Assembly (NCBI GenBank): GCA_012515075.1
Contig: JAAYZC010000030.1
Span: 1 to 48,308, forward strand
Direction of reading: 5' to 3'
DNA from: Thermoplasmatales archaeon
Lineage (GTDB): Archaea; Thermoplasmatota; Thermoplasmata; Methanomassiliicoccales; Methanomethylophilaceae
DNA: 48,308 nt
In this document: in pieces, positions 1 through 13,392 of the stretch
Layout: every line of letters begins with the position of its first letter
Position numbering within the stretch: the first letter of the stretch is position 1
The notes under the pieces: generated by a model
What the model was told of the DNA's origin: nothing
Databases searched by the model: none
The model's input: only the letters and a program-made list of their open reading frames with translations
Translations under genes and position numbers: made by a program

Positions 1-116
1 AACTGGTGGCCAGGATACTGAATCCAGACATATTCGGAGACATAACCATGAGCAAATTCATAGGCAGCGACTACAGGGACTACCTCACGTACACCAAGGA
101 ACTGGGATTCCAATGA
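1..116 (+). CDS. C-terminal end of a probable corrinoid/iron ABC transporter substrate-binding protein (partial)
   Basis: An open frame enters from the left edge (first full codon at 3) and stops at TGA 114-116. It gives 37 residues that include PDIFGDITMSKFIGSDYRDY and end in ELGFQ. This resembles the C-terminal tail of periplasmic-binding (TroA/BtuF-like) proteins. The identification rests mainly on position: the stop overlaps the ATG of the downstream permease gene by 4 nt, and a BtuD-like ATPase gene follows, giving the usual binding protein-permease-ATPase order. Too little is present to see the signal peptide or ligand site, so the substrate cannot be read. Corrinoid is inferred from the cobalamin genes that follow. 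Confidence 0.6.
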   Translation, partial: LVARILNPDIFGDITMSKFIGSDYRDYLTYTKELGFQ

Positions 117-3073
117 GGCAGGCGGGTTCAAGGGCCGCGGTCCTGCTGGTGCTGTCTGTTCTGGTGTTCTCATCCGCGGGTGCCGCCGGGGTCGGATCGT
201 CCGGGGACCCCGGGGACTCGGACATGGTCCTCTTCGACTACGGTGACGGAAGTACGGTGTGGACGGAGGCGCAGATCCGCGCCGGCGACACAGTGGACAC
301 CATGCTGCGCCGAACCGCCGCATCCTCCGGGGTGGGTTACGCCAGCTCGGAGGGCACGATAACCGTAGACGGCATCACCTCCTCGACCATCGGAGGGTCA
401 TCGGAGGGAGGCTCGTTCGTGGATTCCGGGACGACGGGCGTGACCGTTTCCTGCGGGTGGAGGGTATACCTCTGGTCGGAGGCGTCCGGATCGTGGTCGG
501 AGGCGGGGTCGATATACGGGGAATGCACACCCGGTTCCTATGCGCTAGGGTTCTACCCCGAAGGGATAACGCCGGTGGAGACTCCGGACTGCCAGGACTC
601 CTGGGTCATGGTCAGGGGTGACTCCGCGCAGTCGGGGGCTCAGACCGTCGGCGAGCGCTCCGAGGAGGAGGCCGCCGTCAAATGGACCGACACCAGAGGC
701 GGTGTGAGCGGGGTGTGCTCGGCCGTGCTCAGCGCCCAGGACAGGGTCTTCGTCAAGTTCGGCACCAGCTCCGGCATGAGCTCCCAGAGCACGGTCGCCG
801 CGCTCAGGTGCTACACGATGGACGGGGAGCTGCAGTGGTCCTTCGAATTCCCGGGCATACTGTACTTCGAGACATCGACCCCTCTAATCGTCGGGGACAG
901 CATATACGTCCCTTCCGGGTGCGGATACGTGTTCAAGATCCCCTGGAAGGTCGGACCCGGGGAGGACAACGAGAACGTCACCACTTTCGGGGGGGCCCCC
1001 TACAACTCCCTGGACATAGAGTCCGGGGAGGGTTCCATACCTTTGGACACCGGTGCAGAGCTGACAGGCACGACGTACAGCACCGGCCCCGCCAGTCCGG
1101 TCTACAGCTCCGGAGGGGTGTACCTCATGTCCTCCAACGGGATGGTGTACTGCTTCGACACCGACCTCAACCTCGTATGGTCCTACCAGCTGGGCGGGCA
1201 CACATACTATCTGTCCCCGACCGTGACCGACGGCTATGTGTTCTGCGGGGCTCTGGACGGGTGCCTGTACGTGCTCGACGGGTCCTCTGGGGACCTGGTG
1301 GATATGGATAAGGTCTACACGAGGACGATAAGGGACAAGGAGTACGGCCTGGTGTCCGCCCCCTCGGTGATAAGCAACGGGTCCGGTCTCATCCTGATGT
1401 TCTCGGTCAGCGACGGAAGGGGCATGAACTCTCTGGTGGGCGGCGTCTCAATCTACACCTTCGAGGGCGGGTCTCTGGAGCGCAGGTACCTGAACACGGA
1501 GGACTTCGGTATCGTCTCCAACTACATGGTGGCCGTCTCCAACGAAGGGTTCGAGGGAGCTTATTTCGCCGCTTCCGGCGGCCTATACAGGATAAGCTCA
1601 GCCGGCAGCGCCTCCCTGATGAACGGTTCTATCGAGGAGGTGCATGCAGCCCCCGTCCTGGTCGACGGGGAGCGCATATACCTGGCGGCCTACGGTTCCC
1701 GGTCCGAGAACTACGTGTCGGACCTGGAAGGCAACATATTGTCGGTGTTCGAGCGCCCCTCGAATGTAGACAACTACAACATGAGCCCGGTGACGGTGAT
1801 CGGTAGCTGGACGTTCGTGGGCAACGACTCGGGAATGTACGCCATATACGGCTCCTTCCCGGAATCCGTGCCCGGCGGCGGATTCCCCCTGTGGATCCTG
1901 GCAGCCGCCGTAGCGCTGATCGTAGCCGGGTTGTATCTGGCGATGAAATACGTCCTCCGCATAGAGTGCCCCCTGGGATTCATAAGGCAGAATCTCAGGG
2001 CTTACACGCATCCGGGTGAAGGCTCCCACAACGCGAAGAGCAAGCGCCGCCTGGTGCTGGTGCTGGCGGCAGGGTCGGCGATAGCGTTCGGGATATTCAC
2101 GGCCAGCCTTTCGGTGGGGTCCACCGCGGTGTTCTCCTTCACTGACACCTATTCGATACTGTTCTCCGCGATCTCGAAGGGAGGCCAGGATCTTACGGAG
2201 CCGGAGATACTGGTGTATTATTCCAGGCTTCCGCGCACCATGGCGGCGTTCGCGGTGGGCATCGGGCTCTCCGTGGCCGGCGCCGTCTACCAGGCCATAA
2301 TAAGGAACCCTCTGGTCGACCCCTACATTATGGGAGTGTCCTCCGGGGCGGGCACTGCGGCTATAGCCGTGATAGCCTTCGATTTCACCTTCTTCGGCAT
2401 CTTCGCTCCCAACGACATGTACCTGACGGCGTTCGCGGCCATCGCAGGGGGCCTGATAGCGTTCTTCGCCACGATGTTCATAGCCGAGAGGGCGGGCGGG
2501 TCTTCGGTGAACTACGTCCTGGCAGGAGTGGTGGTGGGCCTGGCGTTCTCGGCCGTCCAGACGCTGATGCTGTCCATGGCGGGCCACCAGGTCACCGGCG
2601 CGCTGTCCTGGCTGTTCGGATCGTTCTCCAACATATCCTGGAGCCAGGTCTGGGTCGTGCTGGTCCCGGCCCTTTTCCTGTCCCTGGTGCCTCTGGTATG
2701 GGCCAAGGAGCTGAACCTGGTCCTGCTGGGGGAGGACCAGGCCATGCAGATGGGGCTCAACGTGAGGAGGTTCAACAGATTCATGCTGATCCTCGCGTCG
2801 GTGCTAACCGCGATATGCGTGGCGTTCGTCGGCATAATCGGTTTCGTGGGGCTGGTCATACCCCACCTCTGCCGTATGATCCTGGGAGGGGACCATAGGC
2901 TGGTGCTGCCCGCATCCATAGTCCTGGGCAGCGCGCTGATGATGCTGGCGGACTTCGCATCCAGGACGATGATGACTGGCATAGAGCTTCCGGTAGGTGC
3001 GATCACCACTGTGATAGGCGTGCCCGTATTCGCATACCTGCTGGTCAGGAGGGGGAAGATGTATGACGGATGA
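113..3073 (+). CDS. Fusion protein: secreted DUF4430-like domain + PQQ-like beta-propeller + BtuC/FecCD-type permease
   Basis: 986 residues in three parts. Residues 1-25 are a signal peptide or anchor. About 38-160 contain a pattern like the DUF4430/transcobalamin-like fold (GDTVDTMLRR, then VDGI, then GWRVYLW). About 160-585 hold repeated blades of PQQ-like propeller type, such as LVWSYQLGG and GCLYVLDGSSGDLV. A membrane helix lies at about 591-611. Residues 645-986 form a full-size FecCD permease with RLPR, YQAIIRNPLVDP, the SSGAG turn and FVGLVIPH. The permease part would move corrinoid (or Fe-siderophore) across the membrane with the ATPase encoded next, which overlaps this gene by 11 nt. 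The large extracytoplasmic part is unusual for this family and may capture or sense ligand; that is inference. The reading frame is continuous through the junction. The permease call is firm, the DUF4430 assignment moderate. Confidence 0.85.
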   Translation: MRQAGSRAAVLLVLSVLVFSSAGAAGVGSSGDPGDSDMVLFDYGDGSTVWTEAQIRAGDTVDTMLRRTAASSGVGYASSEGTITVDGITSSTIGGSSEGGSFVDSGTTGVTVSCGWRVYLWSEASGSWSEAGSIYGECTPGSYALGFYPEGITPVETPDCQDSWVMVRGDSAQSGAQTVGERSEEEAAVKWTDTRGGVSGVCSAVLSAQDRVFVKFGTSSGMSSQSTVAALRCYTMDGELQWSFEFPGILYFETSTPLIVGDSIYVPSGCGYVFKIPWKVGPGEDNENVTTFGGAPYNSLDIESGEGSIPLDTGAELTGTTYSTGPASPVYSSGGVYLMSSNGMVYCFDTDLNLVWSYQLGGHTYYLSPTVTDGYVFCGALDGCLYVLDGSSGDLVDMDKVYTRTIRDKEYGLVSAPSVISNGSGLILMFSVSDGRGMNSLVGGVSIYTFEGGSLERRYLNTEDFGIVSNYMVAVSNEGFEGAYFAASGGLYRISSAGSASLMNGSIEEVHAAPVLVDGERIYLAAYGSRSENYVSDLEGNILSVFERPSNVDNYNMSPVTVIGSWTFVGNDSGMYAIYGSFPESVPGGGFPLWILAAAVALIVAGLYLAMKYVLRIECPLGFIRQNLRAYTHPGEGSHNAKSKRRLVLVLAAGSAIAFGIFTASLSVGSTAVFSFTDTYSILFSAISKGGQDLTEPEILVYYSRLPRTMAAFAVGIGLSVAGAVYQAIIRNPLVDPYIMGVSSGAGTAAIAVIAFDFTFFGIFAPNDMYLTAFAAIAGGLIAFFATMFIAERAGGSSVNYVLAGVVVGLAFSAVQTLMLSMAGHQVTGALSWLFGSFSNISWSQVWVVLVPALFLSLVPLVWAKELNLVLLGEDQAMQMGLNVRRFNRFMLILASVLTAICVAFVGIIGFVGLVIPHLCRMILGGDHRLVLPASIVLGSALMMLADFASRTMMTGIELPVGAITTVIGVPVFAYLLVRRGKMYDG

Positions 3074-3869
3074 AACGCCGCTTCTGGAGCTAAGGAATGT
3101 GAACAAGTACTACGAGGACGGATACCATGCCGTCCGGAACGTGTCCTACAGCGTCGGCGCCGGGCTGCTGGTCGGCCTCATAGGGCCCAACGGCTGCGGG
3201 AAGAGCACCATGATGAAGTGCATAAACAGGATGCACGGGACCTCCTCCGGCGACATACTCATCGACGGGGAGACCGTCCTAGACAAGAAGGCGTCTCAGG
3301 TCGCCAGGATGGTCTCCAACGTGCCCGCGGAGCTGCGGGTGAGCTTCGGTCTGACGGTTTACGAGACCGTGATGCTGGGCAGATACCCCTTCCTGCAGAA
3401 CATATGGTGGGAGTCCGAGCGGGACGAGACCGAGGTGGTGGACGCTCTCAGGAAGTTCGGGGTCCTGCATCTGCAGGACCGCCCTCTGAATCTGCTGTCC
3501 TCGGGTGAGCGCCAGCGCGTGCTCATCGCCAAGGCCTATGTCCAGGACCCGCGGCTCATGCTCGTGGACGAGCCCACCTCCCACCTGGATATGAAGTACA
3601 AGCTGGACGTCATGGAGTACCTCAGCGCCATGGTCAAGAAGGACATGACCGTCCTTGTGGCCGAGCACGACATATCCCTCATGGCCAGATACTGCGACCT
3701 CTGCATAATCATGAAGAAGGGGGGGATCGTCGGGATCGGAAAGCCCAAGGAGGTTATAACCCCGGAGCTGATCGAGGACGTGTACGGGGTCAGCGCCTCG
3801 GTGGGTTTCGACAGCGAGGGGGAGCTGTTCGTCCTGCCCAAGAGATACCGCACCGGGAGCAAGCTCTGA
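3063..3869 (+). CDS. ABC transporter ATP-binding protein, BtuD/FecE type
   Basis: 268 residues, the usual size for the ATPase of a corrinoid or iron-chelate importer. Walker A is GPNGCGKST (41-49), the signature is LSSGE (145-149), Walker B is LMLVDE (165-170) and the H-loop His is 202. It should power the permease encoded just upstream, whose 3' end it overlaps by 11 nt. One oddity: where the family normally has a Q-loop glutamine in a VPQE-like context, this protein reads VPAE (87-90), so the residue expected to contact Mg and water is Ala89. Cobalamin rather than iron as substrate is inferred from the neighbours. Confidence 0.9.
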   Translation: MTDETPLLELRNVNKYYEDGYHAVRNVSYSVGAGLLVGLIGPNGCGKSTMMKCINRMHGTSSGDILIDGETVLDKKASQVARMVSNVPAELRVSFGLTVYETVMLGRYPFLQNIWWESERDETEVVDALRKFGVLHLQDRPLNLLSSGERQRVLIAKAYVQDPRLMLVDEPTSHLDMKYKLDVMEYLSAMVKKDMTVLVAEHDISLMARYCDLCIIMKKGGIVGIGKPKEVITPELIEDVYGVSASVGFDSEGELFVLPKRYRTGSKL

Positions 3870-3885
3870 GCGAGGGGCATGTATG

Positions 3886-3912
3886 GATGGATAATCCATC
3901 ATTATTTAATCA
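3886..3912 (+). promoter_or_regulatory. Promoter of the cobD-cobY operon with an upstream palindrome
   Basis: A TATA-like TATTTAAT (about 3903-3910) is centred 29 nt before the ATG at 3935, predicting a leaderless or nearly leaderless mRNA. Directly upstream is a perfect 15-nt palindrome, GATGGAT-A-ATCCATC (3886-3900), in the place where a BRE or regulator site would sit. Confidence 0.5.
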
Positions 3913-3934
3913 TCTTCATCCATCACCCGGCAGT

Positions 3935-5053
3935 ATGAAGGTCGAAGAACTGACGAGAGATGCGCTGAAGGACCTTCCCAAGACCGTCCACGGCGGACAG
4001 GCTTGGAGACTGGGCGAGGCAGAGGATTACAGCCATAATCTGAACCCCTTCGGCCCTCCCGATTTCCTCAGGGAGGCGGTCCTTTCGGCGGTCGGAGAGG
4101 TCGGTCACTATCCGGACGACTCCTGTGAACTCCCCAGAAGGACGGTGGCGGAGCATTTCGGAGTGGGTCCCGAGAATGTCATCATAGGCTCGGGCTCCTC
4201 GGACATAATACGCTGTTTCCCCAACACCTTCCTGGGTCCCGGGGACCGTGCGATAATATCCCGTCCGTCCTTCGCGGAGTACTCACAACAGTGCAGGATC
4301 GCAGGGGCAGAGATACTCTGGAACGACATATCCGAGGAGGACGGTCTCCGCATAAACCGCCGCAGGCTCACCTCCCTCATGGAGATGGGGGCCAAGGCTC
4401 TGTACATATGCAACCCCAACAACCCCACCGGACGCATCGAGCCCAGGGAGAAGATACTGGACATAGCCCGGGAATGCGAGGACCGCGGAATGCTCCTTTT
4501 CCTGGACGAGACGCTGCTGGAGCTGGTGCACGGATACGAGGACATAACCTGCGCCGGTCTGGTTGAGGAGCAGGGAAACATACTGGTTGCAGGTTCCCTC
4601 ACCAAATCCTTCGCCATACCCGGGATAAGGATAGGGTTCGGGATAGCCTCGGAGGCCATGATCCGCGAGATGGAGAAGGTCAGGATGACCTGGAACGTGG
4701 GTCAGGTCGAGCAGGACGTCCTGGTGTCTCTTGTGGGGCAGCACATGGACTATGTGCGCAGGGCCGCGGAGATGATGCATTCGGAGTCCCGCAGGATGCA
4801 CGACGAGCTCACCGCCCTCGGGTTCCCCCTGGACGGCGTGGCGGACGGTTTCTTCTATTTCACCTCCCTGAGGTCTCTGGGCGTCAAGTGCGCCGAGTTC
4901 CAGAGGAGGATGCTCGAACACGGCATAATGGTCAGGGACTGCGCCTCCTTCGGAACACCCTTCGAGTGGTACGTACGCTTCAGTGTCAAGGACCGGGAGC
5001 GCAACGACGCCTTCATAAGGGCGGTGGGAGAGGTAATGAAGGGCCTGAAGTGA
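3935..5053 (+). CDS. cobD: Class I/II PLP aminotransferase-fold enzyme, probable L-threonine-phosphate decarboxylase CobD
   Basis: 372 residues of the HisC/CobD fold-type I PLP family. Visible are CNPNNPTG (159-166), Asp191, which pairs with the pyridine nitrogen, and the Schiff-base Lys224 in SLTKSF followed by GIRIGFG. CobD makes (R)-1-amino-2-propanol phosphate for the nucleotide loop of cobamides. That role is inferred because the next gene is cbiB, whose product uses this compound, and because a separate hisC lies in the his cluster at 34462-35523. The ATG at 3935 is chosen over an upstream ATG at 3887 because the TATA box lies between them. HisC-like aminotransferase activity is the alternative. 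Confidence 0.8.
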   Translation: MKVEELTRDALKDLPKTVHGGQAWRLGEAEDYSHNLNPFGPPDFLREAVLSAVGEVGHYPDDSCELPRRTVAEHFGVGPENVIIGSGSSDIIRCFPNTFLGPGDRAIISRPSFAEYSQQCRIAGAEILWNDISEEDGLRINRRRLTSLMEMGAKALYICNPNNPTGRIEPREKILDIARECEDRGMLLFLDETLLELVHGYEDITCAGLVEEQGNILVAGSLTKSFAIPGIRIGFGIASEAMIREMEKVRMTWNVGQVEQDVLVSLVGQHMDYVRRAAEMMHSESRRMHDELTALGFPLDGVADGFFYFTSLRSLGVKCAEFQRRMLEHGIMVRDCASFGTPFEWYVRFSVKDRERNDAFIRAVGEVMKGLK

Positions 5054-5057
5054 TCCC

Positions 5058-6053
5058 ATGGAGCTATGGATCGATGCGGCACTGATAGTACTGGGGGCTC
5101 TGCTCATAGACGCCATCATAGGGGACCTGCCGAACGCAGTGCACCCTCTGAGATGGATGGGGAACATCCTCGGCTGGCTGGACAGGCGCATCAGGCGCGG
5201 GGGCAGGACGGCGACCCGTCTGAAAGGGTTCCTCTCCTTCCTGCTGGTGGTGTTCCTATTCGGATCCGCGGCCTTCCTCGTGCTATCGGGGGTGCGCATC
5301 TACCTCGGTGAGATCGCATGGATCATCGTCTCCGCGTTCCTCCTCAAGATAACGTTCGCGGTCTTCTCGTTCAGGCGCCACTGCAGGCCGATCAAGAGGG
5401 ATCTCGAGAACGGCGACACCGCCGCCGCGGCGGCGAAGGTGCAGATGATAGTGAGCCGCAGGACGGAGGGGATGGACTCCGAGCATATAGCCTCATCCTG
5501 CTGCGAGACCATATCCGAGAACTTCGCCGACAGCGTGGTTTCACCGATGTTCTTCAACGGCATACTGGGCCTTCCGGGGGCGATAGTGTTCAGGTGCTCC
5601 AATCTGATGGATGCCATGTGGGGGTATCTGAACGACAAGTACGGAGACCTCGGGTTCTTCCCAGCCCGTTTCGACGACGTCCTGGGGTACCTCACCTCTC
5701 GCATATCCCCCGCCTTCCTGGCCCTGGCGGCCGTGCTCATGCGCATGGACTGGAGGGCGGCCATACCGGCGGCCAGGGCCGATCACGGCAAGACGCCCAG
5801 CCCCAACAGCGGCTGGCCGATGACCGCCGCCGCCGCGGTCCTGGGTATAAGCATGGAGAAGAAGGACGTTTACGTCATGGGCACGGGCCCGCTGCCGACC
5901 CCGGAGGACATATCAAGATGCTACCGCCTGGTCGAGCTGTCCTCCGTGCTGTTCATAATAATGGCGGGGCTGCCGCTGTTCTGCCTGCTGGGGGTACATG
6001 TTCAACTGTACGTCGAGGGCGCTTACGCCCTGGTATGGGGGCTGCTGCCATGA
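5058..6053 (+). CDS. cbiB: Adenosylcobinamide-phosphate synthase CbiB
   Basis: 331 residues, a polytopic membrane protein. Family hallmarks in order are HPLRWMG near the N-terminus, ETISENFADSVVSP, NLMDAMWGY, FFPARFDDVLGY and the loop DHGKTPSPNSGWPMTAAAA. CbiB joins adenosylcobyric acid to aminopropanol (phosphate), closing the side chain that will carry the lower ligand. The gene begins 4 nt after cobD and its stop overlaps the cbiZ start as ATGA, so translation is probably coupled. Confidence 0.95.
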   Translation: MELWIDAALIVLGALLIDAIIGDLPNAVHPLRWMGNILGWLDRRIRRGGRTATRLKGFLSFLLVVFLFGSAAFLVLSGVRIYLGEIAWIIVSAFLLKITFAVFSFRRHCRPIKRDLENGDTAAAAAKVQMIVSRRTEGMDSEHIASSCCETISENFADSVVSPMFFNGILGLPGAIVFRCSNLMDAMWGYLNDKYGDLGFFPARFDDVLGYLTSRISPAFLALAAVLMRMDWRAAIPAARADHGKTPSPNSGWPMTAAAAVLGISMEKKDVYVMGTGPLPTPEDISRCYRLVELSSVLFIIMAGLPLFCLLGVHVQLYVEGAYALVWGLLP

Positions 6054-7144
6054 TGACGGAGATACTGGAACACAGTGGGCTTCCTGTCGCAGTCATCAGG
6101 CTGGAGGAGATGATGGAGGTTCTGAGCTCAGCCGTTCTCGGCGGAGGCCACGGGATAACCGACACCCTGTTCATAATGGAGGTGGAGAAGGACTACATGC
6201 ACGAGGACCCCATGGGGCACATACGCTCCGTCAGGGACGACCTGGGACTCCCCCCGTACTCCGTGGGTTTCATGACCGCCGCCGAGGTGAGGCACGTGTT
6301 CTCGGTGGCGGAGACCGTCTTTGAAGGTGTGAGGACGGAGGCCGCCGCGACCGCCGGTCTAAGCAACCAGGTGGTCGCCGGAGAGGTGCTGGATAACTGG
6401 GAGGAGAGGCACAGGCTGTCGCTCGAGAGATCCGCCAGGCTCCTCGCGGGAACCATCAACATAATCGGGGTGTCCCCGTCCGCGCTGACCGATGCGGCCA
6501 AGATGAACATATTCATAGCCATGACGGAGGCCAAGACGGCGGCGCTGAACTCCCTCGGGTACAGCGAGACCGGCACCACCTCGGACTCCATGGCGATAGT
6601 GTCCCCGCCAGGCTCCGACCGCGTGTCCTACTCCGGTACGGGAACACCGCTGGGGATATCCATGGCCCGCTCGGTAAGGGACGCCGTGCGCTCCTCTCTG
6701 GTCAGACGCGGAGACTTCCCCGTGCCCGGGACCTTCATGGACGGCCTGAGGTCCCACGGGGTGACGGAGTATGATATCCTCTCCATCGTCAGAGAGGGCG
6801 ATCCGCGCGTCACAAGGAAAGAGTTCGACGCCGTGTTGGACGGGATGATCCGCGACCGTGACGTGTCGGCCCTGACGCAGGCCCTGCTCGAGATGCACAG
6901 GCTCGACCTGCTGGGGTGCACCTACGGCTCGGGGGACTACCCAACCCATTTAACCTCGCATATCATACTCGGTTCGCAGCTGGCCCGTGCGATCGCAGGA
7001 GAGGGGGCGGAGGAGCGCTTCCTCCGCCTGGCCGAAGGGCCCCGCAGAATCCGGAGCCAAGATGGATACCTGGGGGCCGCAGTCTGCGGACTGGCCGCCG
7101 GAATGATGACCAAGATGTCCGAGGGGACAATACACGAAAGGTGA
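6050..7144 (+). CDS. cbiZ: Adenosylcobinamide amidohydrolase CbiZ
   Basis: 364 residues. The CbiZ core is seen in TAGLSNQVVAGE, GTINIIGVSPSALTDAA, MTEAKTAALNSLG and GTTSDSMAIV. The enzyme cleaves the aminopropanol side chain from adenosylcobinamide to give adenosylcobyric acid, a known archaeal salvage step that lets imported cobinamides or foreign cobamides be rebuilt by CbiB. That fits the upstream corrinoid importer. ATG at 6050 overlaps the cbiB stop (ATGA); a second ATG follows at 6053. The region after about residue 210 may be a second domain, since archaeal CbiZ proteins can be longer than the core, but I could not assign it. Confidence 0.88.
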   Translation: MMTEILEHSGLPVAVIRLEEMMEVLSSAVLGGGHGITDTLFIMEVEKDYMHEDPMGHIRSVRDDLGLPPYSVGFMTAAEVRHVFSVAETVFEGVRTEAAATAGLSNQVVAGEVLDNWEERHRLSLERSARLLAGTINIIGVSPSALTDAAKMNIFIAMTEAKTAALNSLGYSETGTTSDSMAIVSPPGSDRVSYSGTGTPLGISMARSVRDAVRSSLVRRGDFPVPGTFMDGLRSHGVTEYDILSIVREGDPRVTRKEFDAVLDGMIRDRDVSALTQALLEMHRLDLLGCTYGSGDYPTHLTSHIILGSQLARAIAGEGAEERFLRLAEGPRRIRSQDGYLGAAVCGLAAGMMTKMSEGTIHER

Positions 7145-7148
7145 GCAA

Positions 7149-8456
7149 ATGGCAGATGAGAACAGCGAGAAGAAGCACGATTGGAAGGCACCGGGTGAGC
7201 CTGAGCAGTCCGAAGACACGAATGCCGAGGAGAACCGTCAGGAGCCGAAGCCCAGATCGGCGTTCTGGGACAAGGTCCCCATGAAGCCCGCTGGCGAAGG
7301 GGTTGCCACCTCCGCACCGGAGACGGACAGGTCTGCCCAGTCCGACTGGAAGGAGCCCCCCAAGACGGAGGCGAGGCCGATCCCCGCCTTCAGGGAGGTG
7401 CACCCCGCCCCCGAGCCTCAGCCCGCGATTCAGAGCGTGCCAGAGGCTCCGATGGAGGAGACGGAACCCTCACCGCAGCCCGCGATCCAGGAGGTGCCCG
7501 CTCCTTCTCCCGAGCCCGTAATCCCCGCGTATCCCGAACCCGCTCCGATGCCCGGACCGGAAGCGGCTTATACCGAAGGGCAGGAGCACCGTGCCGGGGA
7601 GGGCAAGACCGGACCCGCTTCCATCACCGAGGGGATCACATCCAAGAGCATGATGGCGGCAATCAAGGGAATGGTGTCCTTCTTCACCATAATACCTCTG
7701 GATGTGAACGAAGACGAGATGGATGCCATGGACAGGAACATGCACTTCGCGCCGGTTATAGGATTCCTCGTGGGTCTGGTCGTCATGGCCGCGGCGGGAA
7801 TACTGGTGCTCGCGGGATTCGGGACCATAACCGCCGTGGCGGTCTCGCTGGCACTCCTGCTGATGCTCACCAAGTTCCTTCACTTCGACGGCCTGGTGGA
7901 TTTCGGGGACGGCATGATAGCCTCCGGCAGCACGGAGAAGCGCGTGCATGCCATGAAGGACAGCTCCATGGGCGCGGGCGGATTCGGAGTGGCACTCACG
8001 ATCACCCTGATATCTTTCGCGGCATTCGTCGACATGGGGCTGTTCTTCCTGGCCCTGGTCTGGCCGGTCGAGGTTCTCACCCGGAACGCCATGGTGGCCG
8101 CGGCGGCCTTCGGTGAGCCGGGTAGCGGCATGGCGGGCAGGCAGGTGAGCTTCACCAGCACGAAGTCGATGATGATATCCACGATCGTGGCCGTGATACT
8201 TGCCGTCGTGGCCGTGGTAGTGTCCGTGATCATGATGGCGGCCGTAGGCGGATTCGTCGCGAACCCCCTGCTGGTCAGATACATCGCGGTCGTCATAGTG
8301 ATGGCCGTGATATCCGTGGCGGTCGGCTGGGGAATGGCTAAGATCGCCAACAAGGGTTTCGGCATGGTCAACGGCGATGTGCTGGGGGCCACCAACGAGA
8401 TCTCCCGTGCCGCGATGCTACTGGTTTCCATGCTGATGCTGGCGCTTATGTTCTGA
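7149..8456 (+). CDS. cobS: Adenosylcobinamide-GDP ribazoletransferase CobS with a long disordered N-terminal tail
   Basis: 435 residues, versus about 250 for ordinary CobS. Residues about 165-435 are the membrane enzyme that joins adenosylcobinamide-GDP with alpha-ribazole(-phosphate). They contain FLHFDGLVDFGDGM, HAMKDSSMGAGGFG and several hydrophobic helices. Residues 1-165 are charged and rich in Pro and Glu, predicted disordered. They carry a repeated DWK.P motif (HDWKAPGEP and SDWKEPPKT) and a repeated PQPAIQ.VP motif. The tail is in frame with no internal break and begins 4 nt after cbiZ. Its role is unknown; it may dock other late-pathway enzymes at the membrane, which is inference. 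Confidence 0.9.
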   Translation: MADENSEKKHDWKAPGEPEQSEDTNAEENRQEPKPRSAFWDKVPMKPAGEGVATSAPETDRSAQSDWKEPPKTEARPIPAFREVHPAPEPQPAIQSVPEAPMEETEPSPQPAIQEVPAPSPEPVIPAYPEPAPMPGPEAAYTEGQEHRAGEGKTGPASITEGITSKSMMAAIKGMVSFFTIIPLDVNEDEMDAMDRNMHFAPVIGFLVGLVVMAAAGILVLAGFGTITAVAVSLALLLMLTKFLHFDGLVDFGDGMIASGSTEKRVHAMKDSSMGAGGFGVALTITLISFAAFVDMGLFFLALVWPVEVLTRNAMVAAAAFGEPGSGMAGRQVSFTSTKSMMISTIVAVILAVVAVVVSVIMMAAVGGFVANPLLVRYIAVVIVMAVISVAVGWGMAKIANKGFGMVNGDVLGATNEISRAAMLLVSMLMLALMF

Positions 8457-8466
8457 GGGCGATGCG

Positions 8467-9072
8467 TTGGATGCGCTGATAAACGCCGGCGGAAAAGGCA
8501 CCCGGATGGGGAAATGCGGGGTGGAGAAACCCATGCTGACGGTGGGCGGCAAGCCCACCATACAGCGGGTGCTGGAGGCAGTATCGGCCTCCTCCCACGT
8601 GGACCGGGTGCTGGTGTCCGTCAGCGACAACACCCCGGGCACGGAGAGGTTCCTTCACAGGATGGGGGTCGAGACCCTGCTCACCACCGGGGAGGGTTTC
8701 ATGGAGGACATCCACATGTCCTTCGAGAGGCTGACCTCGGAGTTCGTCCTGGTCTCCCCCTCCGACCTTCCGCTATTAAACACCTCCGCGGTCGATGCCC
8801 TGATCGAGTTCTTCAACCCCGAGATGATGGAATCGGCCATGGCGGTCATAGACAAGGAGACGGTCTGCCGTGCGGGGGTGGTTCCTTCATACACCATGGA
8901 GGACGGGGGCAAGGAATGGGTCCTCTCCGGCATCTCCATAATGGACAGGGAGCGGACGCTCAGGGGGGAGTATCTGAAGGAGTACTGCTTCCAGACGGAC
9001 TGGTTCGAGCTCGCGGTAAACGTGAACACACAGCACGAGCTGGAGCTGGCCAGGAGCTATTTCCGCGGTTAA
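8467..9072 (+). CDS. cobY: GTP:adenosylcobinamide-phosphate guanylyltransferase CobY
   Basis: 201 residues, the archaeal replacement for bacterial CobU. The nucleotidyltransferase signature is at the very start (NAGGKGTRMG, then EKPMLTVGGKP), with SPSDLPLL as the metal-binding loop. It makes adenosylcobinamide-GDP for CobS, encoded 10 nt upstream. The start is TTG at 8467, because the conserved NAGGKGTRMG must lie near the N-terminus and no in-frame ATG or GTG precedes it; a purine-rich GAGGGCG sits about 6 nt before. It ends in TAA and overlaps the convergent cobT stop by 4 nt. Confidence 0.93.
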   Translation: MDALINAGGKGTRMGKCGVEKPMLTVGGKPTIQRVLEAVSASSHVDRVLVSVSDNTPGTERFLHRMGVETLLTTGEGFMEDIHMSFERLTSEFVLVSPSDLPLLNTSAVDALIEFFNPEMMESAMAVIDKETVCRAGVVPSYTMEDGGKEWVLSGISIMDRERTLRGEYLKEYCFQTDWFELAVNVNTQHELELARSYFRG

Positions 9073-10181
9073 ATGTTCATTATTCCCCTGTAGAACTCAT
9101 GCACCTTGTCCAGGATGTCGTCGCAGGTTATCCTTCCGGCACTCTCTATCACGGCTGCCACGGAGGCCCCGCCGCATCCGACCCCTTCCTTTATGAAGCC
9201 CCACTCGTAGGCCTGCAGACCCTCGTAAGGGCTCTTGGAGTAATCCATGTTGACGTAGACTATGGGTACGTTCCTGTCTATCGCATCCATCATCCTGCTC
9301 ATGCTGGAGTTGGGGTCCTCCATCAGCCATCTGGTGGTACCCTGGAATATGTTGCCGACCACGGAGGGGTCGAGCCTGACCGCCGCGGCTATCACCGCGG
9401 CCATCTGGGTGCCTCCGCCTATGATGACGGGGACGTTCTTGGCGGCTCCGATGATCATCCCCACGTTCGCAGGCATCATCGGGTCGCCCACAGCCTCTAT
9501 GGCTCCCAGTGGGTCATCGGCCATGTCGCCCACGCCGACGCCCGCCGCCTCCAGCGCCTCCATGACGATCCGGGTCTTGAGCTCCTTTGGGTTCTTCGGC
9601 GAGCTGCTGCTCACCAGGTTCTCCTTCACAACCCCCATGGCCATCATAACGGCCAATGCCGTCGTGGTCCCCCCGGCGCAGCTCTCGCTTATCACCAGGA
9701 AGTCGTATCCGCGCGACAGAGACTCGCCGAGCATCACGCCCTTCTCGTAGCATTCCCTGACGTTCTTGACGGATCTTCCGGTCGTTATCTTCTCGCCGCA
9801 CTCCCCTCCGACGTCGAAGCACGGGACGTAGGGTTTGACCCTCGTGCCCCCGTTGACTATGTGGTACGGCATGCCGGAGAGCTCCAGGGCGGCCTTTGTA
9901 AGGGTGGCGGGGGTAGGTATGCCTCCGGGGTTTATCGGTATCCCCTTCATGCACACGGTCCTGCCCATCATCAGGAGCTCGGCGTCGGCCGCGGGAGTGA
10001 ACATGGTGAGTTCCGGTGTGTCGCCGGCATCGGATATGCCGGGTATGGTGGAGGTGAGGGTGTTCGCCACGGTGCAGGTGAAGACGCCTTTCTTCCCCCA
10101 TATGCGGGACAGGATGTCGTACGCGATCTCCTCGTTGCCGTATATGCTGAGCGAGGGCGGGAGCCTGAAGTCTGATGCCAT
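9069..10181 (-). CDS. cobT: Nicotinate-nucleotide--dimethylbenzimidazole phosphoribosyltransferase, archaeal CobT (TIGR00303 type)
   Basis: 370 residues. It activates the lower-ligand base by transferring phosphoribose to form the alpha-ribazole phosphate used by CobS. Archaeal CobT features are STIPGISDAGDTPE, KGIPINPGGIPTPA, CAGGTTTALAV, IIGGGTQMAAV and, near the C-terminus, EGVGCGGAS, whose Glu332 is at the place of the catalytic base. The start at 10181 is supported by a TATA-like element about 27 nt upstream. The actual lower-ligand base cannot be told from sequence. It converges with cobY and ends in TAA. Confidence 0.92.
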   Translation of the reverse strand: MASDFRLPPSLSIYGNEEIAYDILSRIWGKKGVFTCTVANTLTSTIPGISDAGDTPELTMFTPAADAELLMMGRTVCMKGIPINPGGIPTPATLTKAALELSGMPYHIVNGGTRVKPYVPCFDVGGECGEKITTGRSVKNVRECYEKGVMLGESLSRGYDFLVISESCAGGTTTALAVMMAMGVVKENLVSSSSPKNPKELKTRIVMEALEAAGVGVGDMADDPLGAIEAVGDPMMPANVGMIIGAAKNVPVIIGGGTQMAAVIAAAVRLDPSVVGNIFQGTTRWLMEDPNSSMSRMMDAIDRNVPIVYVNMDYSKSPYEGLQAYEWGFIKEGVGCGGASVAAVIESAGRITCDDILDKVHEFYRGIMNI

Positions 10182-10202
10182 TGCTCCCGGATGCACAGCG
10201 AC

Positions 10203-10213
10203 ATAATTATAAC
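10203..10213 (-). promoter_or_regulatory. TATA-like promoter element of cobT
   Basis: AT-rich TTATAATTAT on the minus strand, centred 27 nt before the cobT ATG and inside the short gap after the ApgM-like gene. This suggests cobT has its own leaderless transcript. Confidence 0.5.
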
Positions 10214-10240
10214 CTGCCCCCGATGGAAACACAGGGGGCT

Positions 10241-11236
10241 TCAGGGCAGCAGTCCGGGCACTATGTCCTTCAGGGGCACAGTCTCCCCGTCCCGGAACCC
10301 TGAGTCTATGGAGGTCCAAAAGGGCACGGTCATCAGTATGTGCTCACCCGTGACGCAGGAGGTCCCGTGGTCCACGAAATAGACTATGTCCTCGACGTCC
10401 GAGAAGTGCTCGCACATCAGGCGATCGATGAGCTCCAGCACCCGGACCTTCTTCCCCGGGTCCTTCTGATGGCTGTACTCGTCGACCTCGTCGAGGTGAA
10501 GGAACACGTTTCCAGTCTCCAGGGCATCCCTGGCGGCGGGGAAACGGGCCTCTATGTCGTCCACGAGCATTATATCATGTCCCAGGGAGGCGGCTATCCC
10601 CAGGGCCACGGGGCCGTTGGATATCGCCGTCATCCTTCCCAGACAAGGGAAGGACCTCCCTCCCCTGCCCGGACTTCCCCCGCCCCAGGGGTAATCCGTC
10701 ACGCCCCCCATCTCGCGGGCGACCTTATCCACCAGCTCTCCCAGCTCCCCCGGAAACCTCCTGTAGGGTCCGTCCTTCGGGGGCACCGGGAACCCGTCGG
10801 GCTCCGGGCAATCGCCTTTGAACGTGAGTACGGCCTTCCCTCCCATGTAGAATCTCACGTCCGGATCTTCGAGCATGTGGAGGTTTTCCCTGACGCGGGA
10901 CTCGAGCTCGTCGGCGAATCCTTCGGAGTCGTAGGCCCATCTCAGGTCCACGCCGGCGATCCTGGCCGGGGTCAGGCGGTAAGCCACCCTCCCGGGCCCC
11001 ATCCTGAGGCCGAAGCCGTAGGCCTCCAGGGCTCCGCGGGACATCTCCGGGGGCCTTCCCGAGAAGAACTCGTTGAGGAAAAGATGGGTGTAACCGCGAC
11101 CGGTGGTGTACATCTTGTGCCTGGCTTTCGAGTGCAGGAAAGGCATCCTGGCGACATCGAGCGGCTTCTTCCCGTCGAATTCAGGTATGGGGTCGTCCTC
11201 GGCCCCGTCAAGCAGTACGAACAGTGTGTTGCTCAT
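10241..11236 (-). CDS. ApgM-like alkaline-phosphatase-superfamily protein (phosphoglycerate mutase family), divergent
   Basis: 331 residues, shorter than the roughly 400 usual for archaeal ApgM. Metal-ligand motifs are visible: LLDGAEDDP at the N-terminus, HLDEVDEYSH in the middle, and VDHGTS plus GEHILMTVPF at the end. SRGALEAYGFGLRMGPG matches the family's GRGPLEALG region. However, the family's PGSD motif carrying the catalytic serine aligns with TGRG, so the nucleophile appears replaced by Arg47. Ordinary mutase activity is therefore doubtful. The gene lies between hypF (4-nt overlap with its stop) and cobT. A role in dephosphorylating alpha-ribazole phosphate or cobalamin phosphate is possible, because no cobC/cobZ is seen here, but it is untested. 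Confidence 0.75.
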   Translation of the reverse strand: MSNTLFVLLDGAEDDPIPEFDGKKPLDVARMPFLHSKARHKMYTTGRGYTHLFLNEFFSGRPPEMSRGALEAYGFGLRMGPGRVAYRLTPARIAGVDLRWAYDSEGFADELESRVRENLHMLEDPDVRFYMGGKAVLTFKGDCPEPDGFPVPPKDGPYRRFPGELGELVDKVAREMGGVTDYPWGGGSPGRGGRSFPCLGRMTAISNGPVALGIAASLGHDIMLVDDIEARFPAARDALETGNVFLHLDEVDEYSHQKDPGKKVRVLELIDRLMCEHFSDVEDIVYFVDHGTSCVTGEHILMTVPFWTSIDSGFRDGETVPLKDIVPGLLP

Positions 11237-13392
11237 CCGATCATCTTCAGTGCGACGGCGGCCTGTCCGACCGATATTCCCCCGTCTCCGTTGGGTATGC
11301 TCTTATGGAATATCAATTCAAGGCCCGTTCTCTTCGCCGATTCGGAGAACATCCTGCATATGGGTCTGTTGTACGAGACCCCTCCGGTGATGCCCAGACG
11401 GCGTATTCCCTCGGATTCGGCCGCCACCCTGGCCGATTCCACCATCTCGTCGATGACCGCGCGTACGACGGAATAGGCCGCGTCCTCCCTGCGGCACCCT
11501 CCGTCTATCCTCTCGAAGAGGTGGGCCGTCATGATCTGTCCTCTTTCGGTGTATGTCCCGAAGCCGTCCACGTTCTCCCCCCTGGCGAGCAGGGGTTCCA
11601 TCTTCATGGCCGGCTCCCCGTCGTACGTCCTGCGGTCGCACACTCCCAGAGCATAGGCCAGGGTGTCCAGGAGCCTGCCCATGGACGACGTCATCACGCT
11701 CTTCCCCATCAGCTTCCTGAGCACTGCGGCGGAAGAGTCATCGAAGTCCCGGTTCTCGGTGCCGTTCATGCAGTCGACTGCGAACTTCAGGCGTCTTATG
11801 TCGTGCAGGGCCCTGTCGGACCCCAGCAGGGGGATGTACTGGAGATGCGCCACGCGGTCGTATGAGGCCAGGTCGGATCTGAGGACCTCTCCGCCCCATG
11901 CGTTGCCGTCGGGCCCGTACCCGGTGCCGTCCAGCGAGAGGACCACAGCCTCCTCTGCGGAGTTCTCCAGCAGCAGGGAGGCCGCATGAGCCCAATGGTG
12001 CTGCACCTCCACCAGATCGCAGCCCCACTCCTCGGACAGGGCCCTGCCGAAGCCCCTGTTGATGTATCCCGGATGGAGGTCCATGGCGACCGCGGAGGGT
12101 TGGCATCCCGTCATCGCCATGAGCGACCGCGTGGCCTCCTCCAGGTACTCGGCAACTCCCGGGGACTCTCCGTTGCCTATGTGCTGCGTGCTGTACATCC
12201 TGCCGCCGGCGGCCACAGAGGCGGTAAGGTTCTCCTGCGCCCCTATGCCCACGGCGGATCCTGCGAAGGGGACCTCCAGGTAGGACGGTATGTGTCCGCG
12301 GGACTTCCTTATGAACGAGGTTCTGCCGTCGATGACCCTGAGGACGCTGTCGTCGGCCCTGTTGATTATCCTCTGGTCGTGCAGGAGGTAGCAGTCCGCA
12401 CCGAGTTCCAGGACATCCCTGTCGTCGGTGATCATCGGCTCCCCCGGCACGTTGGCGGACGTCATCACCAGAGCATCGAACCTCCCGCTGCGGAAAAGAA
12501 GATGCTGCATCCCTGTGTACGGGAGGAACACGCCTATGTTGTCCAGCCCCGGTGACAGGGCCTCCGTGACCTCGCCCGGGACCTTGTCCACCAGCACTAT
12601 GGGGCGATGTCCGGACTCCAGCTGCTCCCTTTCCTCCTCCGTGGGCCGGCCGTACGTTTGAACGGCGGTAATGTCCCTGACCATGAGCGCGAACGGCTTC
12701 TGCTCCCTGCGGTACCATCTCCTCATGCGGCGGGTGCTCTCGGGGGCGCAGCATATGTGCATTCCCCCCCAGCTCTTGGCAACCCCGATGCATCCGGATG
12801 CGATCATACCGGCGAAGACGTCGACGGGTTCCCCGGGGACCGCCCCGCCGTCGCCGTCCAGAAGGCGATAGGAGGGCCCGCAGGCTGGACAGCACACGGT
12901 CTGATGGTGAAATCTCCTGTCGGAGGGATCCGAATACTCCTTGGCGCAGTCGGGGCACATGGGGAAATCCGCCATGGCTGTGGATGGCCTGTCGTAAGGC
13001 AGACCGGAGAGCAGCGTGAAGCGCGGTCCGCAGTCCGTGCAGCTCGTGAAGGCGTATCCCCGGCGCCTTCCGGAGAGCATGTCCTCCAGGCACCTGGGGC
13101 AGATCGCGGTGTCGGTGGGTATCCCGACCCCCTTCCTGCCGGCCTCCGATCCCGCTATCCTGAAATCATCGTAGTCCGCCAGGGAGGGCTCCTTCTCAAC
13201 GGAGGCTATCCTGGCAAGAGGGGGTAGGTTCTCCATCAGGTCGCGGAGGAGGGCTTCCCCGCCGTCCGCGTCGATCACCACGTCGGGGCCGTCGTTCCAG
13301 ACCCTTCCGTGTATGCCCAGGGATGTTGCCGATCGATATACGGCGGGACGGAATCCCACTCCTTGGACGGTACCGCGGATGGTTATCCTCAT
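11233..13392 (-). CDS. hypF: Carbamoyltransferase HypF ([NiFe]-hydrogenase maturation)
   Basis: 719 residues. Domains in order are acylphosphatase (about 1-88, GTVQGVGFRPAVYR), two Cys4 zinc modules (CPRC...CTDC and CPDC...CPAC, about 105-195), a YrdC-like ATP-binding domain (about 190-365, KPFALMVRD) and a Kae1-like carbamoyltransferase domain (HHWAHAAS, SLDGTGYGPDGNAWGGE). HypF makes the carbamoyl group that becomes the cyanide ligands of NiFe hydrogenases, which hydrogen-dependent methanogens need. The ATG at 13392 has a TATA-like element about 25 nt upstream. The only link to the cobalamin genes seen here is position. Confidence 0.96.
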   Translation of the reverse strand: MRITIRGTVQGVGFRPAVYRSATSLGIHGRVWNDGPDVVIDADGGEALLRDLMENLPPLARIASVEKEPSLADYDDFRIAGSEAGRKGVGIPTDTAICPRCLEDMLSGRRRGYAFTSCTDCGPRFTLLSGLPYDRPSTAMADFPMCPDCAKEYSDPSDRRFHHQTVCCPACGPSYRLLDGDGGAVPGEPVDVFAGMIASGCIGVAKSWGGMHICCAPESTRRMRRWYRREQKPFALMVRDITAVQTYGRPTEEEREQLESGHRPIVLVDKVPGEVTEALSPGLDNIGVFLPYTGMQHLLFRSGRFDALVMTSANVPGEPMITDDRDVLELGADCYLLHDQRIINRADDSVLRVIDGRTSFIRKSRGHIPSYLEVPFAGSAVGIGAQENLTASVAAGGRMYSTQHIGNGESPGVAEYLEEATRSLMAMTGCQPSAVAMDLHPGYINRGFGRALSEEWGCDLVEVQHHWAHAASLLLENSAEEAVVLSLDGTGYGPDGNAWGGEVLRSDLASYDRVAHLQYIPLLGSDRALHDIRRLKFAVDCMNGTENRDFDDSSAAVLRKLMGKSVMTSSMGRLLDTLAYALGVCDRRTYDGEPAMKMEPLLARGENVDGFGTYTERGQIMTAHLFERIDGGCRREDAAYSVVRAVIDEMVESARVAAESEGIRRLGITGGVSYNRPICRMFSESAKRTGLELIFHKSIPNGDGGISVGQAAVALKMIG

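Follow-up and report, generated by a model that had tools for sequence, protein, structure and literature searches.

A BtuC-like permease fused to a putative SLBB-propeller head in a corrinoid-salvage operon of Methanomethylophilaceae

What is a large secreted domain doing on the permease of an ATP-binding cassette (ABC) importer? The question is raised by a gene at the start of contig JAAYZC010000030.1 (48,308 nucleotides, here called the window, i.e., the whole stretch that was analysed) from assembly GCA_012515075.1, a Thermoplasmatales archaeon of the family Methanomethylophilaceae. The gene stands between a substrate-binding-protein gene and an ATPase gene at the head of a corrinoid-salvage operon, and it is a single open reading frame of 986 codons with no internal stop. 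Hydropathy analysis of the encoded protein showed a signal peptide at residues 9-27, a membrane helix at residues 593-611 and, following a basic cytoplasmic linker (residues 612-645), the helices of a permease. The region between the signal peptide and the first membrane helix is predicted to comprise an N-terminal beta-grasp domain of the SLBB type and a beta-propeller, together referred to here as the head. Pfam FecCD (PF01032) matched residues 661-979 with an expectation value (E) of 3.4e-82 over profile positions 5-311 of 311, i.e., the full length of a permease. The best NCBIfam match of the permease was BtuC and its best solved-structure matches were FhuB, HmuU, and BtuC; at 219.9 bits, under the BtuC equivalog cut-off of 461, we class it only as BtuC-like. 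With the head outside, the helix running inward, and the permease entered from the cytoplasmic side, the topology agrees with itself, and this is the likely arrangement of the fused protein in the membrane.

The initial annotation of this locus had proposed an uninterrupted fusion of a large ectodomain to a permease, and our results uphold it. Third-position guanine-cytosine content was even throughout the gene, at 0.68-0.91 per 300-base step, including the junction at 1850-2050, and the start ATG overlaps the stop of the preceding gene, that of the binding protein, in the motif ATGA (113-116). A search through 102 Methanomethylophilaceae genomes recovered the ectodomain from 76; of the 45 best genomes, 41 have it. 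Ectodomain and permease occurred in one frame, as checked in the fetched loci, in 58 genomes including that of the window, 57 of which are Methanomethylophilaceae, a lower bound for the 102 searched, while one, G117, belongs to another family of the same order; single-contig chromosomes with the fused gene are G007, G011, G013, G048, G049, G052, and G054. Since the identical one-frame architecture recurs in 57 other genomes (56 of the same family, plus G117), several of them single-contig, the merged gene pair or frameshift that the initial annotation had considered at the junction is excluded, and the fused gene is genuine. Paralogous loci do have a split form, which would suit an assembly or annotation artefact in which a frameshift merged two neighbouring genes, but with the junction in one frame in 58 genomes, closed chromosomes among them, and a uniform codon-position signal, the probability of such an artefact is negligible. 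As to the case that the initial annotation had named as refuting, homologues always in two separate genes, it holds by half: split homologues exist and so do fused ones. Median identity to the window protein across 53 homologues was 66% in the permease, 37% in the propeller, 35% in the N-terminal domain, and 24% in the membrane helix and linker. N-terminal extensions of 300-450 residues (L036, L068, L072, L074, and L076) were considered as fused binding proteins and rejected: they are rich in Arg and result from reading the upstream gene out of frame. In L070, an extension at the C-terminus is likewise a second permease gene downstream, read out of frame. A further fused gene, L027 (G018:C20:2554-4305), has one in-frame TAG in the N-terminal domain, for which readthrough, a true stop, and an error are indistinguishable; the order of its genome is known for TAG as a pyrrolysine codon.

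The split form was informative about the relationship of the head to the importer. In the paralogous type of locus, the gene order is binding protein, stand-alone SLBB-propeller protein, plain FecCD permease (~370-395 residues), and ATPase, and the stand-alone protein (611-631 residues in most) ends in a C-terminal membrane anchor. A tree of 87 permease domains calls for at least four switches between the fused and the split state, and the fused gene of L086, nested among split ones, is an independent fusion. Eight plain permeases form one clade nested within the fused ones, suggesting that the head was lost after duplication to leave one head per transporter. A plain FecCD gene directly follows the fused gene in L046, L050/L057 (L057: fused gene at 7385-10372), L056, L070, L071, L079, L091, and L111, and such pairs probably encode a transporter with one headed and one headless permease. 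Adjacent genes that have been joined or split time and again without leaving their common operon make a good case for head and permease working together, and since the split gene stands exactly between the binding-protein and permease genes, a role of the head in transport is supported as well. Judging from these gene arrangements, the head is a standard subunit of the importer, fused in many cases. The split-type loci also have very large secreted surface proteins on their flanks, some of which contain SLBB-like domains (L087:38-3511 and 8872-12000; L086:120-3905). These resemble the adhesin-like proteins described next to BtuCDF in a study that also found abundant BtuC clades in Methanomassiliicoccales (PMC10804542).

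The structure prediction and fold search that the initial annotation had suggested for the ectodomain gave a confident model. AlphaFold2, run on the extracytoplasmic part with 52 homologues, returned a beta-grasp domain and a propeller with a predicted local distance difference test (pLDDT) score of 93.7 and a predicted template modelling score of 0.93. Modelled alone (pLDDT 92.6), the N-terminal domain showed the order strand-strand-helix-hairpin-strand (E9-13, E19-23, H32-42, hairpin E47-50/E53-56, and E61-65, then more strands). Its Foldseek matches were ubiquitin-like beta-grasp domains, among which human transcobalamin (7qbe and 7qbg) had by far the highest probability, 0.97. Burroughs et al. 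(2007; PMC1796856) set the transcobalamin-like SLBB clade apart by conserved glycines and by a hairpin that directly follows the helix. The model has this hairpin directly after its helix, and the glycine in the turn before strand 3 (Gly87 of the protein) is kept in 89% of homologues. Neither Pfam nor a sequence-profile search of the PDB (best E 0.024) identified the domain directly, and a DUF4430 search of the window's own genome gave no match. Profile-profile comparison with hhalign, on the other hand, linked the domain to small secreted proteins encoded upstream in these loci (97.4%, E 1e-11) while propeller and permease controls reached at most 6%, and a small secreted operon protein in L066 exceeds the Pfam DUF4430 cut-off at 27.5 bits. 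The models and profiles thus point to membership of the N-terminal domain in the transcobalamin-like SLBB/DUF4430 group, in agreement with the resemblance to DUF4430 and to the transcobalamin C-terminal domain noticed earlier.

The same domain occurs well beyond the fused protein. Binding proteins encoded upstream in homologous loci are ~450 residues long, and in these Pfam Peripla_BP_2 starts only near residue 156; the stretch ahead of it matched the N-terminal domain of the fused protein in hhalign at 97.6% (E 4e-12). In the window the binding-protein gene is truncated, because the window begins at the contig edge, and for the same reason its SLBB domain was invisible to the initial annotation. 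In at least 25 of the 42 loci with enough upstream sequence, the gene directly ahead of that for the binding protein encodes a secreted protein with one to four SLBB domains, and in L077, L080, L083, and L084 two further SLBB-like domains lie between propeller and permease, in proteins of ~1,200 residues. By these profile matches, each extracytoplasmic part of the importer, i.e., binding protein, head, and small secreted proteins, carries an SLBB domain.

The second part of the head is a beta-propeller, as had been proposed. Pfam PQQ_2 was found in 51 of 52 homologues (33.6 bits against a cut-off of 27.6), Foldseek matched YxaL, BamB, and tetrathionate hydrolase with E ~1e-12, and a PDB profile search also gave the PQQ/BamB class. 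An insert of ~100 residues or longer past the second blade region occurs in L074, L075, L076, L078, L079, and L081; the window protein is without it.

The operon itself suggests a ligand (Table 1). The CbiS/CbiZ protein matches NCBIfam CbiS across the whole model (E 1.2e-55, under the equivalog cut-off), and CobT and CobB/CbiA genes lie nearby in the window on the opposite strand. Since CbiZ/CbiS cuts imported cobamides for remodelling, the operon is one of corrinoid salvage. CobD-CbiB-CbiS genes also adjoin the fused importer in nine further genomes, six times downstream (L042, L054, L055, L064, L065, and L066) and three times divergently (L077, L080, and L084; in L080 just CobD and CbiB fall within the fetched stretch). 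The corrinoid setting claimed at the outset is therefore borne out in the window and beside nine other fused loci, and gene content makes a strong case for assigning the window importer to corrinoids. The N-terminal extension of CobS is Pro/Glu-rich, and homologues in related loci are long too (366-556 residues). Between btuD and cobD, L054 has a gene for a Sir2-type NAD-dependent deacylase, by its N-terminal sequence (L054:9414-10130), and L055 has one in the same place. No Rfam riboswitch was found in the window or in four related loci.

Table 1. Features at the start of the window, with positions and the evidence for each.
Feature	Position	Strand	Evidence or remark
Upstream BtuF-like substrate-binding-protein gene, 3' end, truncated by contig start	3..116	+	Frame ends GSDYRDYLTYTKELGFQ*
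Fused gene: signal peptide, SLBB/DUF4430-like domain, beta-propeller, membrane helix, and FecCD/BtuC permease, 986 residues	113..3073	+	
Signal peptide, residues 1-29	113..199	+	Hydrophobic 9-27; cleavage-like motif AGAAG
Predicted SLBB (DUF4430/transcobalamin-C-like) beta-grasp domain, residues 30-165	200..607	+	AlphaFold2, Foldseek, hhalign
PQQ/BamB-type beta-propeller, residues 166-580	608..1852	+	Pfam PQQ_2, Foldseek
Membrane helix, residues 591-611, returns chain to cytoplasm	1883..1945	+	Hydropathy; residues 612-655 have 8 K/R vs 2 D/E
FecCD/BtuC permease, residues 646-986	2048..3070	+	Pfam E 3.4e-82; NCBIfam BtuC E 6e-65; PDB BtuC 1l7v E 7e-44
BtuD-like ABC ATPase	3063..3869	+	Overlaps fused gene by 11 bases; Pfam ABC_tran E 5.2e-30
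CobD-like threonine-phosphate decarboxylase	3887..5053	+	NCBIfam CobD best match E 1.5e-62, under equivalog cut-off
CbiB adenosylcobinamide-phosphate synthase	5058..6053	+	NCBIfam CbiB E 8.6e-72, over cut-off
CbiS/CbiZ adenosylcobinamide amidohydrolase (+ alpha-ribazole phosphatase), cobamide-remodelling enzyme	6053..7144	+	Pfam CbiZ E 9e-46
CobS (ribazoletransferase), N-terminal extension ~165 residues	7149..8456	+	NCBIfam cobS E 1.2e-35, residues 168-426 of 435
CobY-like adenosylcobinamide-phosphate guanylyltransferase	8467..9072	+	NCBIfam TIGR00454 E 2.2e-30, CobY E 1.4e-23, both under cut-off

Considering these results together, we lean toward the reading that the ectodomain is a tethered head for corrinoid capture and docking on the permease of a BtuCD-F-like type II importer. 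Because only ~10 residues tether the head to the extra helix, it must sit on the membrane at the mouth of the permease, the docking place of the binding protein. We infer that the ligand is a corrinoid, that the head binds it, and that there is an order of hand-over from the binding protein; the receptor tethered at the mouth of the importer, as suggested earlier, stands as a reading on these terms, and the earlier interpretation as a whole is partly supported. In the sequence of events that we propose, secreted and surface SLBB units would scavenge corrinoids (cobamides and cobinamide), and the SLBB-propeller head would hold the ligand, serve the binding protein, with its own SLBB domain, as a dock at the BtuC pair, or do both. 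The ligand would then pass through BtuC as BtuD hydrolyses ATP and would be rebuilt into the preferred cobamide by CbiS/CbiZ, CbiB, CobD, CobY, CobS, and CobT. Two precedents bear on this proposal. In transcobalamin, vitamin B12 is sandwiched by the SLBB domain and a toroid (PMC1796856), and in Bacteroides the seven-bladed propeller BtuG covers BtuB like a lid and binds B12 tightly (PMC10404256; PMC6143338). It is conceivable, though we hold this more tentatively, that the loci encode a new archaeal corrinoid-capture system with SLBB domains in all outside parts, in which the SLBB-propeller on BtuC would be the membrane-level counterpart of the BtuG lid and a corrinoid would be sandwiched between propeller and SLBB domain before import.

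Several observations weigh against a corrinoid-binding head. The propeller is of the PQQ/BamB type, and propellers of that type are frequently pure scaffolds; BtuG was absent from the best 50 of 1505 Foldseek matches, no direct sequence link to it having been sought, and the likeness to BtuG, an analogy, would be limited to shape and place. The Foldseek E-values of the transcobalamin matches are weak (0.08 and 0.14). Pfam DUF4430 had no direct match in any of the 52 ectodomains, so that the DUF4430 link of the N-terminal domain is an indirect one, by profile comparison via operon-neighbour proteins. In the remaining fused loci, the flank that was fetched contains no cob genes, and for these the corrinoid assignment is therefore an extrapolation. 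In addition, SLBB-propeller surface proteins that stand alone (~550-570 residues; L105:4659-6368, L106:5473-7113, and L108:5187-6875) occur in other families of the Thermoplasmata with no importer genes nearby, so the head may predate its link to the importer.

The main rival to a capture and docking head is a pure scaffold that does no more than keep SLBB surface proteins, the binding protein among them, at the permease and leaves the ligand to the binding protein. The presence of the same domain in each extracytoplasmic component suggests homotypic assembly, and the propeller is like that of BamB, which acts as a scaffold in the BAM complex. Complexes of paralogous extracellular SLBB proteins were moreover proposed by Burroughs et al. 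(2007; PMC1796856). However, the SLBB superfamily as treated there is chiefly ligand-binding, and our model has the hairpin that touches B12 in transcobalamin; we regard a pure scaffold as rather unlikely. It is less probable again that the head binds its ligand but the importer serves chiefly for heme or another chelate, with the cob neighbours incidental. Permeases of the FecCD family handle siderophores and heme as well as corrinoids, the one here falls short of the BtuC equivalog cut-off, and cob genes are missing from many fused loci and from the split paralogous loci examined; the transcobalamin-type domain in the head and the cobamide-salvage genes adjoining the importer in the window and nine other genomes argue otherwise. 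A sensor or gate that tunes the permease to an outside ligand or to the state of the cell surface would fit the covalent attachment via one membrane helix, and one-component sensors contain SLBB domains (PMC1796856), but the linker at 612-645 is short, poorly conserved (24% identity), and without a signalling domain, and the stand-alone form possesses a membrane anchor only. We consider this last explanation very improbable.

A tethered capture and docking head would set this importer apart from known systems, with each of which it shares something. Like Escherichia coli BtuCD-F, the type II importer of B12, it has a FecCD/BtuC permease, a separate Peripla_BP_2 binding protein, a BtuD ATPase, and a corrinoid genetic setting; unlike in BtuCD-F, its permease has one more membrane helix and an SLBB-propeller head of ~560 residues, its binding protein begins with an SLBB domain, and in some loci a fused permease is partnered by a plain one. 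With the C-terminal domain of transcobalamin and intrinsic factor it has in common the beta-grasp, the hairpin after the helix, the Gly before strand 3, secretion, and the corrinoid setting, whereas here a beta-propeller and an ABC permease take the place of the alpha/alpha toroid, and any B12 contacts would be by analogy. BtuG, the Bacteroides surface lipoprotein, is likewise an extracellular propeller at a B12 transporter, encoded in B12 operons of gut organisms, but it is a lipoprotein of its own that forms a lid on a TonB-dependent transporter of the outer membrane, with no ABC permease fusion; the likeness would be a functional one. In ABC importers of the GlnPQ and OpuA type, the permease has binding domains fused to it. 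There too a receptor-like extracytoplasmic domain is covalently on the permease, whereas here the fused part is a beta-grasp domain and propeller with no binding-protein fold, and the binding protein is a separate gene. SLBB-propeller surface proteins, e.g., of Clostridium, have the same two domain types and are secreted, and in bacteria they often share an operon with a second SLBB protein; as far as the available part of Burroughs et al. (2007; PMC1796856) describes them, they have no permease fused. The study of BtuC clades in Methanomassiliicoccales makes no mention of a fusion or a propeller (PMC10804542), and no published description of the fused architecture was found in the open-access literature searched. 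Within that literature, the parts are known and their combination is apparently undescribed.

Methanomassiliicoccales rely on corrinoid proteins for methyl-reducing methanogenesis. One study proposes that the handling of B12 is a niche factor with a link to methane emission from the rumen (PMC10804542). The head is a concrete, soluble, and expressible domain. If it binds corrinoids, the principle behind transcobalamin and BtuG would hold for an ABC permease too, in a cell that lacks an outer membrane, and the head would show how these gut archaea compete for B12.

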